From NCBI GenBank assembly GCA_017469325.1, contig JAFUGO010000035.1, positions 1-7,200 of the forward strand: a DNA stretch of 7,200 bases, read 5' to 3'. The translations under genes and the position numbers were made by a program. The DNA is from Mogibacterium sp. Its GTDB lineage: Bacteria; Bacillota_A; Clostridia; Peptostreptococcales; Anaerovoracaceae. Positions 201-5,729 of the stretch are shown here, one piece after another; positions within the stretch are counted from its first letter, which is position 1, and every line of letters starts with the position of its first letter. The notes under the pieces are model-generated. The model saw only the letters and a program-made list of their open reading frames with translations. It was not told where the DNA came from and ran no database searches.

Positions 201-1373
201 TTATTTCTCAACGTACTTGCCGTCCTGGATCTCGCAGACCTTAGGAGTCTTGTCAACTTCGCCGGCCTCGTTCCATGTCATCGACTCAGCTGTGAGTCCG
301 CTTGCTGTGAATCCGCCGTTGAACTGCTCGATCATAGCCTCGCAGATGTCTTCCATGGAAGCGTCTGTTCCGAGACCTGTCTTGCCGAATGCGTCATATA
401 CAGCGTATACGCAGTCATAAGCGTCTGCTGCGAACTGGATCGGTGTCTCACCGAACTTGTCCTCATAATTCTTAACGAATTCCTGAACCTTCTCATCTTC
501 TGAATAAGGTGTGAACGGTGTCAGAAGGAGTACGCCCTCTGCGAGTGATGTGTCGAATCCCTCGAGGTCGAGGATTCCGTCCATGCCGTCAACTCCGAAG
601 AATGTAGGAGCATATCCCATCTTGTCGGCCTGTGTCATGATGTTCGAAGCCGGTGTGTAGTAGATAGGCAGGAAGATCAGGTCAACGTTTGCGTTCTTCA
701 TGCTGTTGAGCTGAGCTGTGAAGTCTGCGTTATCATCGGAAGCGAAAGCCTCTACTGCAGCAAGAGTCTTGCCGTCTGCCTCATACTCGCTCTTGAACTT
801 GTCATAGATTCCTGTGGAGTAGTTGTCCGAGTTGTTGTAGATAACTCCGACTGTCTTGTCAGCATAGTTAGTCTTGATGTAGTCAGCGGATGCGATACCC
901 TGGTTAGGGTCGGAGAAGCAGAGCTGATAGATGTTGTCATTACCCTCTGTTACTGCCGGGCCCGAAGCCGAAGGTGTCAGTCCGAATGTTCTGTTAGCGT
1001 TAGCCTCAGCTGCTACAGCTGTGCAAGGAGCTGTTGTTACGGATCCGATCATGATCTGCATTCCGTCGTCTACCAGCTTGTTGTAAGCGTTTACAGCCTT
1101 CTCAGCATCGTGCTCGTCGTCCTGCATTTCCCATACGAGCTGAACGCCGTCAGGATTTGCTGCGTTGATCTCTTCAACAGCCAACTGAGCACCGTTATTT
1201 ACTGCGTTACCATACAGAGCTGCAGGGCCTGTCAGAGGGCCTGTACCACCGAGGTGGAGCTCGCCGCCTGCTGCATCGCCGCTGCCGCTGTCACCGCCGC
1301 CGCATGCTGCGAGAGCGACTACCATCATGCATGAAAGCGCAACTACAAGGAATTTCTTAAAATAACCTTTCAT
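201..1373 (-). CDS. livK: Branched-chain amino acid ABC transporter substrate-binding lipoprotein
   Basis: This 390-residue protein is the extracellular ligand receptor of a Leu/Ile/Val importer. Start ATG at 1373 is chosen because GGAAGG lies just upstream and the protein then opens with a lipoprotein signal: basic MKGYFKK, a hydrophobic stretch, and lipobox LAAC with the lipidated Cys at residue 24. A Gly/Ser/Asp linker follows (25-37). An in-frame ATG at 1490 would add 39 residues ahead of the signal peptide and lies inside the structured leader, so it is rejected. Residues about 38-385 form a type I periplasmic-binding fold. Characteristic segments are GGTGPLTGPAALYG (42-55), IGSVTTAPC (109-117), FSDPNQG (153-159) and a hinge region near AADAYD (315-320). 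It sits between the leader element and livH. The family is certain. The ligand could be another amino acid, and livK/livJ naming is by homology only. Confidence 0.93.
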   Translation of the reverse strand: MKGYFKKFLVVALSCMMVVALAACGGGDSGSGDAAGGELHLGGTGPLTGPAALYGNAVNNGAQLAVEEINAANPDGVQLVWEMQDDEHDAEKAVNAYNKLVDDGMQIMIGSVTTAPCTAVAAEANANRTFGLTPSASGPAVTEGNDNIYQLCFSDPNQGIASADYIKTNYADKTVGVIYNNSDNYSTGIYDKFKSEYEADGKTLAAVEAFASDDNADFTAQLNSMKNANVDLIFLPIYYTPASNIMTQADKMGYAPTFFGVDGMDGILDLEGFDTSLAEGVLLLTPFTPYSEDEKVQEFVKNYEDKFGETPIQFAADAYDCVYAVYDAFGKTGLGTDASMEDICEAMIEQFNGGFTASGLTAESMTWNEAGEVDKTPKVCEIQDGKYVEK

Positions 1374-1437
1374 TTTTCTTTCCTTCCCTTCATAAAGATA
1401 ATGCTTGATGAGGGATAGTTGATAGTTCACTTGTTTG

Positions 1438-1492
1438 CCTTGAGCGGGACATTTTATAAGCCCGCATCGCTGCGGGCTCCCAAGCTTCAAGG
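1438..1492 (-). promoter_or_regulatory. Nested stem-loop with GNRA tetraloop in the liv 5' leader
   Basis: On the transcribed strand the outer stem is CCUUG, bulged A, AGC, bulged UU, GGGA, paired with UCCC, GCU, CAAGG. That is 12 bp from three contiguous helices. Inside is a perfect 7-bp GCCCGCA/UGCGGGC hairpin closed by GCGA, a GNRA tetraloop, followed by ten unpaired bases UUAUAAAAUG. The complementary strand would have TCGC as loop, so the tetraloop favours a minus-strand RNA. The GCGGG arm (1465-1461) could alternatively pair with CCCGC (1448-1444), giving a competing hairpin. No U-tract follows either form. It lies 25 nt after the short leader ORF and 64 nt before the binding-protein start. 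The downstream single-stranded part is poor in G and holds a tandem GATAGTT repeat (1414-1427, plus strand). Confidence 0.6.
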
Positions 1493-1517
1493 TTTATTGC
1501 CTCTTGTACTTACCGCC

Positions 1518-1604
1518 CTACAGCATAAACTCGCCCTCTGCCAGTCTGCCGACCAGAAGGACGCTGATAATGCCGATTACGATAAGGCTTGAAGTAAAGT
1601 ACAT
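1518..1604 (-). CDS. 28-residue Leu/Ile/Val-rich leader peptide or small membrane protein
   Basis: A short ORF runs from ATG at 1604 to TAG at 1518. It has an excellent ribosome binding site, AAAGGAG, 5 nt before the ATG, and begins about 32 nt after the predicted transcription start. The peptide begins MYFTSS, has the hydrophobic core LIVIGIISVLLVG, and ends RLAEGEFML. Twelve of its 28 residues are Leu (5), Ile (4) or Val (3). Two readings fit. One is a leader peptide sensing branched-chain amino acid supply, since the next genes are a branched-chain amino acid importer. The other is a single-pass membrane microprotein, since the same composition gives a short transmembrane helix with a charged C-terminal tail. 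I recognise no named family. Translation is well supported by the start region; function is inference. Confidence 0.6.
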   Translation of the reverse strand: MYFTSSLIVIGIISVLLVGRLAEGEFML

Positions 1605-1642
1605 TTGGTCTCCTTTGTTGTACAGATTCTTTGTACATTGCG

Positions 1643-1671
1643 ATGATAGCATTGTGAAGATTGTGTGTCAA
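1643..1671 (-). promoter_or_regulatory. Sigma-A-type promoter of the liv unit
   Basis: On the minus strand a perfect -35 box TTGACA (1671-1666) is followed by exactly 17 bp and the -10 box TATCAT (1648-1643). A/T-rich DNA upstream (about 1672-1700, with runs of A and T) resembles an UP element. Expected transcription start is near 1636. A direct repeat TTGTACA (plus strand, 1618-1624 and 1631-1637, 13-bp period) overlaps the start site and could be an operator. The promoter lies after the terminator of the preceding gene, so liv forms its own unit. Confidence 0.85.
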
Positions 1672-4633: not shown

Positions 4634-4945
4634 TTATATGAACATTTCTATTAAGAATACGACTATACAGCATATGACCGCAACGCCGAAGAGGTTCACT
4701 CCCATCCACGCCGCGGCTACTCCGGCAACAAGGGCCGCAAGTCCGGCCACAGGCGACTGCGTTGCATCCATTATCGCCGGGAACGTCATCACGGCGAGAG
4801 TGACATAAGGCACGTAATACAGGAACGATCTGATGAACCTGTTCTGTATCGGCTTTTTCATCACCAGCGAAGGGATGATGCGCATGAGCCACGTGGTGAA
4901 CGCCATGACGAATATATAAATGTAAATATACAGATTCTTACTCAT
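4634..4945 (-). CDS. azlD: AzlD-family branched-chain amino acid exporter small subunit
   Basis: This 103-residue integral membrane protein has four hydrophobic segments (about 5-22, 42-60, 64-80 and 84-102). The conserved AzlD N-terminal pattern is present as TTWLMRIIPSLVMKKP (17-32), matching the family's T-x-L-x-R-x-x-P signature. AzlD pairs with AzlC to form a LIV-E type exporter of branched-chain amino acids and analogues such as azaleucine. The ATG at 4945 overlaps the end of azlC by 8 bases and is served by GGGAGG inside azlC's last codons, so the two subunits are translationally coupled. Length is normal for the family. An overlapping frame (4620-4892) looks like a shadow and was not annotated. 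Confidence 0.92.
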   Translation of the reverse strand: MSKNLYIYIYIFVMAFTTWLMRIIPSLVMKKPIQNRFIRSFLYYVPYVTLAVMTFPAIMDATQSPVAGLAALVAGVAAAWMGVNLFGVAVICCIVVFLIEMFI

Positions 4946-5729
4946 CGCCGCCTCCCGTCATCGCAGTTCCGGCTGCGTCCGCCTCATCTGCTTCTTTAGC
5001 GGCAGCCGCGGATAATTCATCCGTCTTGTCTGCTCTCGGCGCCGCAAGAGCAAAGGCCGAAGATATGGCCAGCGTGAGTATTATTGTGCGGTTGCCCTGA
5101 GCCATCCCCGATATACCGGGCAGTCTCGATGCCGCGTAAGACAGAGCAAAGCTCACGGCAACGGCAAGACATACCGCTTTGTCCTTACGGGACGGCGGTA
5201 TTATGACAGCCAGGAACATCCCGAAGATCGCTACCGAAAGTGCGCTCACGATACCTGCCGGAAGGACGGTACCCATCACTATGCCAAGCGTAGTGCCGAG
5301 CGCCCACAGAGGCACCGATGCACACCATGCGCCGAATCCGTAATACGGCGAAGGTATGCCGGGACGCGCGATGCTGATACCGAATATCTCATCGGTGATG
5401 CATGTTCCGACCGCCACGCGAGTCGCGACAGATGTACCCTCAGGCATGCGCTGATTGAGCGTGACGCCCATTAGTATGTATCTGAGATTGGTGATCACAG
5501 TGAGCACCACCAGCTGCACAAGAGTGGCATTGGCGGCATAGAGCGAAAAGCCTATGTACTGCCCTGCCGACGCGTAGGTAAGCAGGCTGGCGACAAACCC
5601 CTGCACCGGACCGAAGCCGTAGGAATGCGCCGCTATTCCAAGCGAAAACGCTACAGCAAAATAGCCGAGCCCGATCGGGATGCCGTCTATCAGTCCCTGT
5701 ATGTATATCTTACCCTTTTTTTCTTCCAT
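4938..5729 (-). CDS. azlC: AzlC-family branched-chain amino acid exporter large subunit
   Basis: This 263-residue multi-pass membrane protein is the large subunit of an AzlCD exporter. Family marks are GLIDGIPIGLGYFAVAFSLGI (12-32, written here as the N-terminal helix region), YASAGQYIGFSL (52-63), TNLRYILMG (80-88), and an acidic TDE (112-114) after the third or fourth helix. Hydrophobic segments fill residues about 15-230. The last 30 or so residues (from about 232) form a hydrophilic Ala/Asp/Glu-rich tail ending in GGGDE, longer than I expect for AzlC. Start ATG at 5729 gives the expected N-terminus, but its ribosome binding site is weak (only AGAG-like). A 9-base repeat containing an ATG-TAG start-stop lies 15 nt upstream. 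The gene follows the racemase by 54 bp and overlaps azlD by 8 bases. Confidence 0.92.
   Translation of the reverse strand: MEEKKGKIYIQGLIDGIPIGLGYFAVAFSLGIAAHSYGFGPVQGFVASLLTYASAGQYIGFSLYAANATLVQLVVLTVITNLRYILMGVTLNQRMPEGTSVATRVAVGTCITDEIFGISIARPGIPSPYYGFGAWCASVPLWALGTTLGIVMGTVLPAGIVSALSVAIFGMFLAVIIPPSRKDKAVCLAVAVSFALSYAASRLPGISGMAQGNRTIILTLAISSAFALAAPRADKTDELSAAAAKEADEADAAGTAMTGGGDE

Follow-up and report, generated by a model that had tools for sequence, protein, structure and literature searches.

A putative leader-peptide attenuator ahead of a branched-chain amino acid importer gene in Mogibacterium and its relatives

Background

The leaders of the ilvGMEDA, ilvBN and leu operons of E. coli have strong U tracts. 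In the same species the leader of livJ, which belongs to a LIV importer, shows Rho-linked premature termination, and we know of no leader peptide for livJ.

Control by a leader peptide has been documented for genes of biosynthesis and of tRNA synthetases (PMC5864092, PMC5794164, PMC11109978, PMC2965389, PMC8632094, PMC6123439), including the 'regular' histidine leader peptides of bacilli (PMC2965389) and a set of uORF candidates (PMC8632094). Among the branched-chain amino acid (BCAA) systems, the rli60 leader of the ilv-leu operon of Listeria monocytogenes (PMC5864092) resembles the leader described below in occurring in the Firmicutes, in its short peptide of BCAA codons, in its segments 1–4 with a terminator opposed to an antiterminator, and in its super-attenuation without translation. 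It differs in that it serves biosynthesis, in the presence of CodY and in its 13-residue peptide, whereas here the target is an importer and CodY was not detected. In Staphylococcus aureus a Leu/Ile-rich attenuator peptide and a terminator also stand ahead of a BCAA operon (ilvD; PMC5794164), but this operon is one of biosynthesis, and its antiterminator spares the terminator stem and pairs with the poly-U tail. The Ile/Leu/Val-rich uORF of ilvB-II in Corynebacterium is likewise combined with an antiterminator and a terminator, although in Actinobacteria and ahead of a biosynthesis gene (PMC11109978, PMC10272879). The E. coli ilvGMEDA, ilvBN and leu leaders represent classical BCAA leader-peptide attenuation (the ilvGMEDA leader has 15 BCAA among 32 residues) and differ in their Gram-negative host and biosynthesis operons (PMC6123439). 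Finally, the LIVBP motif, a riboswitch candidate mostly of Streptomyces, is similar as an RNA ahead of LIV binding-protein genes; it differs in having its Shine-Dalgarno (SD) sequence within the P1 bulge, and the available part of the source mentions no leader peptide (PMC11109978).

No leader peptide ahead of a liv importer was found in the literature surveyed, that is, in the accessible portions of open-licence papers. BCAA leader-peptide attenuation has been described for biosynthesis operons; here it apparently governs an importer of the LIV type, in Clostridia whose genomes yielded no CodY.

Results and Discussion

The leader and its promoter

The window (the whole stretch of 7,200 nucleotides that was analysed) carries all the leader elements and livK on its minus strand (Table 1). 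The near-consensus promoter, ribosome site, 28-codon ORF with 12 Leu/Ile/Val codons, nested stem and livK that the first-pass annotation had reported were all confirmed in position.

Table 1. Coordinates of the leader elements and livK in the window
Feature	Position	Strand	Basis or remark
-35 box TTGACA	1666..1671	minus	promoter scan; kept in 39/39 leaders
-10 box TATCAT	1643..1648	minus	promoter scan; putative transcription start at ~1636
Shine-Dalgarno AAAGGAG of leader ORF	1610..1616	minus	sequence and leader alignment
Leader peptide ORF MYFTSSLIVIGIISVLLVGRLAEGEFML	1518..1604	minus	sequence, conservation, coding tests; ATG at 1604, stop TAG at 1520-1518
Segments 1:2, ORF RNA folded on itself	1505..1603	minus	RNAalifold consensus, 37 leaders
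Segment 2, GCUGUAGGGC, over the stop codon	1515..1524	minus	alignment, pairing test, stall model
Nested stem-loop including outer helix	1438..1492	minus	folding and arm-swap test
Segment 3, GCCCGCAGC, 5' hairpin arm, alternative partners segment 2 or 4	1469..1477	minus	pairing test, stall model
Segment 4, UGCGGGC, 3' arm of 3:4 hairpin	1460..1466	minus	RNAalifold consensus
Conserved tail after 3:4, UUAUAAAAUG in the window, UUAUUAAAUG the commonest type, no U tract	1450..1459	minus	base counts, 37 leaders
Conserved stretch (UAUCAACUAUC...) between hairpin and livK	1401..1424	minus	motif in 33/37 leaders
livK-type binding-protein gene	201..1373	minus	Peripla_BP_6, E 5.6e-43

The promoter, TTGACA-17-TATCAT (1671–1643), matches the consensus at 11 of 12 positions and has TG ahead of the -10 box. 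By itself this match is weak, because two promoter-like sites occur in the scanned region against 1.3 ± 1.1 in shuffles; a -10-like hexamer accompanies TTGACA in all 39 leaders described below. Comparison of 14 leaders by eye showed that the 17-bp spacer ACACAATCTTCACAATG (1649–1665) is almost constant in 13 of them, with L127 deviating, and that a palindrome-like sequence upstream of the -35 box, TTTTGTATTACGTACACAAA at 1707–1726, is recognisable in 12. The latter is possibly an operator for some regulator.

Distribution in the genus

The livK kin at 68–86% identity come from genomes bearing the titles uncultured Clostridiales and Mogibacterium sp., a number of them from goat gut; Mogibacterium is assigned to Anaerovoracaceae in the NCBI taxonomy. 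Among viral contigs no relative was found. From the genome scan the best 80 of 281 confirmed livK loci were taken, of which L001–L013 are the close ones; the leader is present in 12 of these 13, and L011 has no leader ORF. A search of 47 genus genomes with leader DNA matched 37 with one query and 32 with another, mostly at one locus per genome (three fragments in G191). Two leader loci each were seen in G001 (C10, C11) and G005 (C47, C84), which may reflect mixed bins or a further liv locus. Removal of identical cores left 39 distinct leaders, and the arrangement of promoter, SD, Ile/Leu/Val-rich ORF, hairpin and livK recurs in these 39 within one genus of Clostridia. Thirty-seven are complete through the hairpin; the folding sets omit L146 and L095, which end before it does.

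Of the 47 genomes, 41 contain a livK ortholog, complete or partial; the leader is present in 37 of these, a diverged leader in three and a leader cut by a contig end in one. No leader was found in the six others (G160, G162, G177, G179, G094, G183), whose livK matches were distant paralogs, short and N-terminal, or lacking altogether. In G192 (L207) the contig end cuts the leader, and a terminator-like hairpin is still visible.

Conservation of the leader ORF

An in-frame ATG is present in all 39 distinct leaders, and all 39 have an SD-preceded ORF with at least 9/15 Ile/Leu/Val (mean 0.1/39 in shuffles). In 35 leaders the ORF reaches the conserved stop position after 28 codons; four have 29. 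It ends early, at codon 25, in L013 and L110; in L131 and L132 the stop is lost (UAG to CAG), likely in a single event, and the ORF is two codons longer. Eleven core positions (7–10, 12, 13, 15–18 and 21) hold Ile, Leu or Val with few exceptions among the 35 leaders of 28 codons, and their codons swap among the three, position 7 being Leu in 15, Ile in 12 and Val in 8. Phe, Met, Ala and Trp are absent from these positions in the 35 leaders; Ala occurs once in the core of the 29-codon L004, and some Met and Ala occur in the diverged leaders.

Codon changes in the ORF frame are conservative, with a mean BLOSUM62 score of 0.97 in 16 representatives against 0.01 ± 0.38 in column shuffles (2/500 as high). 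The coding signal lies in the first half of the ORF (1.60, against -0.08 and -0.98 in the other frames). In the second half another frame outscores the coding frame (0.57 vs 0.25), which is expected if the RNA there has to pair as well. Within the genus, the alignment of relatives showed the Leu/Ile/Val-rich ORF and the stem to be kept despite sequence drift. The main idea of the first-pass annotation, that ribosome speed on the ORF could tune liv, is supported by the retention of start, SD, frame and Ile/Leu/Val run while the sequence drifts.

Predicted alternative pairings

The RNAalifold consensus of the 37 complete leaders consists of 1:2 with an inner hairpin, followed by the GCCCGCA/UGCGGGC hairpin (3:4). 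The closing helix of 1:2 joins UGUACUU (1603–1597) to AAGUACA (1511–1505), and the inner hairpin has a GNRA-type loop in most leaders; in L110 one of its G-C pairs is swapped to C-G. Taken together, 1:2 and 3:4 are paired in 97.0% of the alignment cells, with double changes in two pairs only, not above several slid controls.

It had been stated that no strong pairing links the ORF to the stem. This was incorrect, since 1524–1515 pairs with 1477–1469. The duplex (2:3) joins GCUGU-A-GGGC, across the stop codon, to GCCC-GCAGC with a single bulged A, and its pairing is kept in 99.4% of 332 cells in the 37 leaders. Its covariation is thin: five of nine pairs are invariant, and one pair shows double changes (from G-C to U-A, next to a mismatch, in L002 and L006), a number that 46/500 shuffles attain. 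The loss of the stop in L131 and L132 converts a U-G pair to C-G, which strengthens 2:3, and in L137 one G is missing. In the window alone 42/2000 shuffles match the duplex strength; the case for 2:3 rests on conservation.

In the stall model, a ribosome was placed at each codon in turn and the RNA in front of it was folded, for the 37 leaders. The mean 2:3 pairing is 0.08 without a ribosome, 0.47–0.85 with the ribosome at codons 2–7, and 0.91–0.96 with the A site at codons 8–23. It then falls to 0.86 at codon 24, 0.47 at codon 25, 0.27 at codon 26, 0.02 at codon 27 and 0.00 at codons 28–29. When segment 2 is permuted, the pairing of segment 3 decreases from 0.95 to 0.59, the reduction being seen in 37/37 leaders. 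Some leaders behave less clearly: ribosome-free 2:3 is not excluded in L138 (0.77), L003 (0.55) and L144 (0.46), the stalled 2:3 is weaker in L001, L137, L002 and L006, and L001 switches poorly at codons 12–20. In the equilibrium fold that includes segment 4, 3:4 prevails on average (0.81, minimum 0.00), and therefore the switch needs kinetics, i.e. timing. Folding predicts mutually exclusive 1:2, 2:3 and 3:4 pairings, as in a classical switch, placed for opposite folds with a stalled and with a finished ribosome.

Three further elements were considered by eye and rejected. A 4:5 hairpin (GCGGGC with GCCCG after the tail) is missing in L002, L009, L142 and L110; pairing of a downstream CUAUC with the post-stop GAUAG is not conserved; and a second ORF from a conserved AUG past the hairpin differs in frame between L010 and L012.

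The hairpin, its tail and the downstream stretch

The fold of the whole leader has an energy of -81.4 kcal/mol (z -4.2; 0/200 shuffles as low), and that of the nested stem (1492–1438) -27.9 kcal/mol (z -3.4; 2/200 as low). The terminator scan of the window did not call the nested hairpin, and the tail in the window's clade has three to five U among its first eight bases (37 leaders), which agrees with the initial remark that a U-tract terminator is lacking. The automatic scan also called 19 of the 37 leaders of this clade; the five calls examined lie inside the ORF, and none was counted as a 3:4 terminator. The tail is conserved in other respects, with U at position 1 in 36 and at position 2 in 35 of the 37 leaders, A at position 7 in 33 and at position 8 in 36, and UG at positions 9–10 in all.

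The outer helix sits beyond the tail and can form only once RNA polymerase has passed. Its cognate arms pair at -13.8 kcal/mol on average against -10.9 for swapped arms in the 37 leaders (0/20000 permutations), a test inflated by relatedness; at least half of the swaps are as good as the cognate in 10/37 leaders, as are 39% in the window itself. The stretch further downstream is unpaired in the window's predicted fold, except at its 3' end, and the relaxed motif found there is TCANCTA. The first-pass annotation was correct in describing 1437–1391 as G-poor (12 C and 4 G in 47 nt). The Rho step that it attached to this stretch may occur, Rho being present in 46/47 genus genomes, but finds no positive support. 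Over the 90 nt past the hairpin C is not above G (C 0.19, G 0.22; 37 leaders).

Diverged leaders in the genus, the family and beyond

The three diverged genus leaders, MFTLNSLIVIISVINILMVIGLRKDAI (L156), MFRKCSVIVISIIIISILLVVEERYCNAGETDTES (L162) and MFCTSLAVIISIIIINVLLVGDDISMQDGWDTGC (L165), are each followed by a terminator-like hairpin and a U-rich tail. Their segments 2 and 3 change together, GCUGCGG occurring with CCUGCAGC and UGCAGG with CCUGCA (by eye and folding). In the family sample a livK ortholog at E 1e-90 was found in 48/296 genomes, 30 of them outside the genus and 29 of these readable. In 24 of the 29, livK is preceded by an ORF rich in Ile/Leu/Val and by a terminator-like hairpin, as judged by eye with the aid of ORF and terminator scans. 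No leader ORF was seen at L219, L221, L222 and L237, and L242 is cut by a contig end. The family loci are not all independent, since one peptide is common to L223–L225 and another to L231 and L234, and some loci are near-identical. The family peptides have 28–74 codons, many of them without obvious similarity by eye.

An intrinsic-terminator-like hairpin (at least 5 U in 8) is present in 31/32 loci outside the window's clade, against 4–7/32 in six shuffles; of the 31, those of L219 and L221 may be chance, and that of L222 comes without an ORF. A strict ORF scan (20–45 codons, at least 11/15 Ile/Leu/Val) recovered 34/39 leaders, 3/3 diverged genus leaders and 9/23 family loci, none in shuffles, and 0/67 loci in other families. 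The livK start could not be placed in L228, L235, L236 and L239–L241, which were read by eye and stand outside the automatic ORF-scan counts; G113, cut by a contig end, was left out of the reading.

The same device in other families was considered and rejected: none of the 67 loci has an SD-preceded ORF of 20–45 codons with at least 9/15 Ile/Leu/Val, one (L056) having 8. A looser scan with SD (12–90 codons, at least 8/15), covering loci up to L080, with the livK start unplaceable in six loci up to L065, gave L014, L015, L025, L031, L046 and L048, of which L014 and L015 look leader-like by eye. These two, titled Oscillospiraceae and outside the family, have a 67-codon ORF with 10 and 12 of 15 Ile/Leu/Val and a terminator-like hairpin before livK. 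At five Lachnospiraceae liv loci (L018, L020, L030, L039, L053), a promoter-like sequence is closely followed by a terminator-like hairpin 17–43 nt before livK, with no leader ORF seen.

The stall model was applied to 14 diverged leaders. A clear switch is seen in L223, L225 and L227, in which segment 3, with other letters, is paired at 0.77–0.93 at Ile/Leu/Val codons vs 0.05–0.46 at the stop. It is moderate in L156 (0.95 vs 0.60) and L215 (0.75 vs 0.49), weak in L162, L165, L214, L216 and L220, and not clear in the long leaders L213, L217, L226 and L229.

Proposed mechanism and its alternatives

The anatomy, the conservation, the predicted switch and the U-tailed terminator-like hairpins of relatives, all obtained from sequence and computation, point to a ribosome-mediated (leader-peptide) attenuator through which charged Ile/Leu/Val tRNA sets the expression of the liv operon, a reading to which a probability of about 0.83 is given. 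The kind of attenuation may be taken as ribosome-mediated because diverged relatives combine Ile/Leu/Val-rich leaders with such hairpins. The 1:2/2:3/3:4 anatomy, together with the intrinsic-terminator-like hairpins in relatives, also weakens the earlier view that a Rho-dependent or translation-linked variant fits better than the classical model. Ribosome speed on the leader ORF probably signals when the importer should be made; translation, stalling and the termination step are here inferred rather than computed, as is the identity of the decisive amino acid among the three.

When the amino acids are plentiful, the ribosome would reach the stop codon and mask segment 2, the 3:4 hairpin would form and livK expression would drop. 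In shortage it would stall within the Ile/Leu/Val run (codons 7–22) and mask segment 1; segment 2 would then pair with segment 3, 3:4 would be blocked and livK transcribed. In an untranslated leader 1:2 would form, followed by 3:4. The output step in the window's clade probably needs help, because its tail has no U tract, and termination assisted by NusA/NusG is the first guess. In B. subtilis, Nus factors have been described as assisting termination where the terminator is imperfect (PMC8060035).

Three alternatives concern the ORF itself. Its product might be a functional small membrane protein made alongside the importer, as its hydrophobic core and its conserved frame and SD would allow, but this is very improbable in view of the restricted choice of residues at the core positions (without Phe, Met, Ala and Trp), the polar residues in the core of L008, L013 and L001, the variable ends, length and stop position, the dissimilar family peptides of 28–74 codons, and the pairing constraint on the ORF RNA. 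That the ORF is incidental to a structured RNA (a riboswitch or protein site) is improbable as well. Nucleotide conservation is indeed very high at GUCCUU..GUC and AGAC inside the ORF and at GGGC past the stop, and the coding frame is not the best conserved in the second half of the ORF; yet the window has no match to the T-box (RF00230) or any other Rfam family at the gathering score, the start, SD and whole-codon length are preserved, and what diverged relatives retain is the Ile/Leu/Val run, not the RNA sequence. A chance arrangement without function could appeal to the modest single-sequence statistics of the promoter and 2:3, but it is hardly credible given the conservation in 39 distinct leaders and the parallel designs in other genera.

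The remaining alternative keeps the leader-peptide sensing and changes the output: rather than by intrinsic termination, the extended hairpin and UUAUUAAAUG-type tail would act by means of Rho, by pausing or by RNase processing of livK mRNA. It accounts for a tail that is conserved yet not U-rich, for the covarying outer helix beyond it and for the conserved downstream stretch in 33/37 leaders, and Rho is present in 46/47 genus genomes. It is nevertheless somewhat doubtful, since relatives in the same genus carry U-rich tails at the equivalent place, C does not exceed G across the 90 nt, and swapped outer arms often pair as well as cognate ones (at least half of them in 10/37 leaders).

For the leader-peptide attenuator, the U tract of the relatives appears, from the sequences compared, to be replaced in the window's clade by the conserved UUAUUAAAUG-type tail. 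It may be suggested, tentatively, that the classical attenuator of this clade lost its intrinsic terminator, rebuilt its output and kept its sensor. With similar reserve, the rebuilt output might comprise the same ribosome-controlled hairpin, the conserved AU tail, the often covarying outer helix and the conserved downstream stretch, and serve as a terminator that depends on a factor, as a pause site or as an element for processing. If so, an attenuator would have been caught switching its output device while the sensor stays. Judged by its design, the leader would be a leader-peptide attenuator that differs from known ones in serving an importer, in turning over within the family and in lacking the U tract. 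The family retains the device while peptide and RNA sequences turn over, and so offers a natural series for the origin and change of attenuators.

The importer and its surroundings

That Leu/Ile/Val are the cargo of the importer is suggested by its protein families (Peripla_BP_6, BPD_transp_2, ABC_tran); in the relative L003, livK is followed by two permease genes (BPD_transp_2) and two ABC_tran genes. CodY was found in 0/47 genus genomes, some of which are incomplete bins, the search control being positive in B. subtilis and L. lactis. T-box matches occur elsewhere in 36/47 genus genomes at E 1e-3, three of them above the cut-off. The window also contains, at 4634–5729, genes for AzlC and AzlD, which act in branched-chain amino acid transport and which we take to be exporters. 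Between livK and the next ORF (start 89), a GC-rich hairpin at 121–150, without a U tract by eye, is perhaps a stem that sets the ratio of binding protein to permease.
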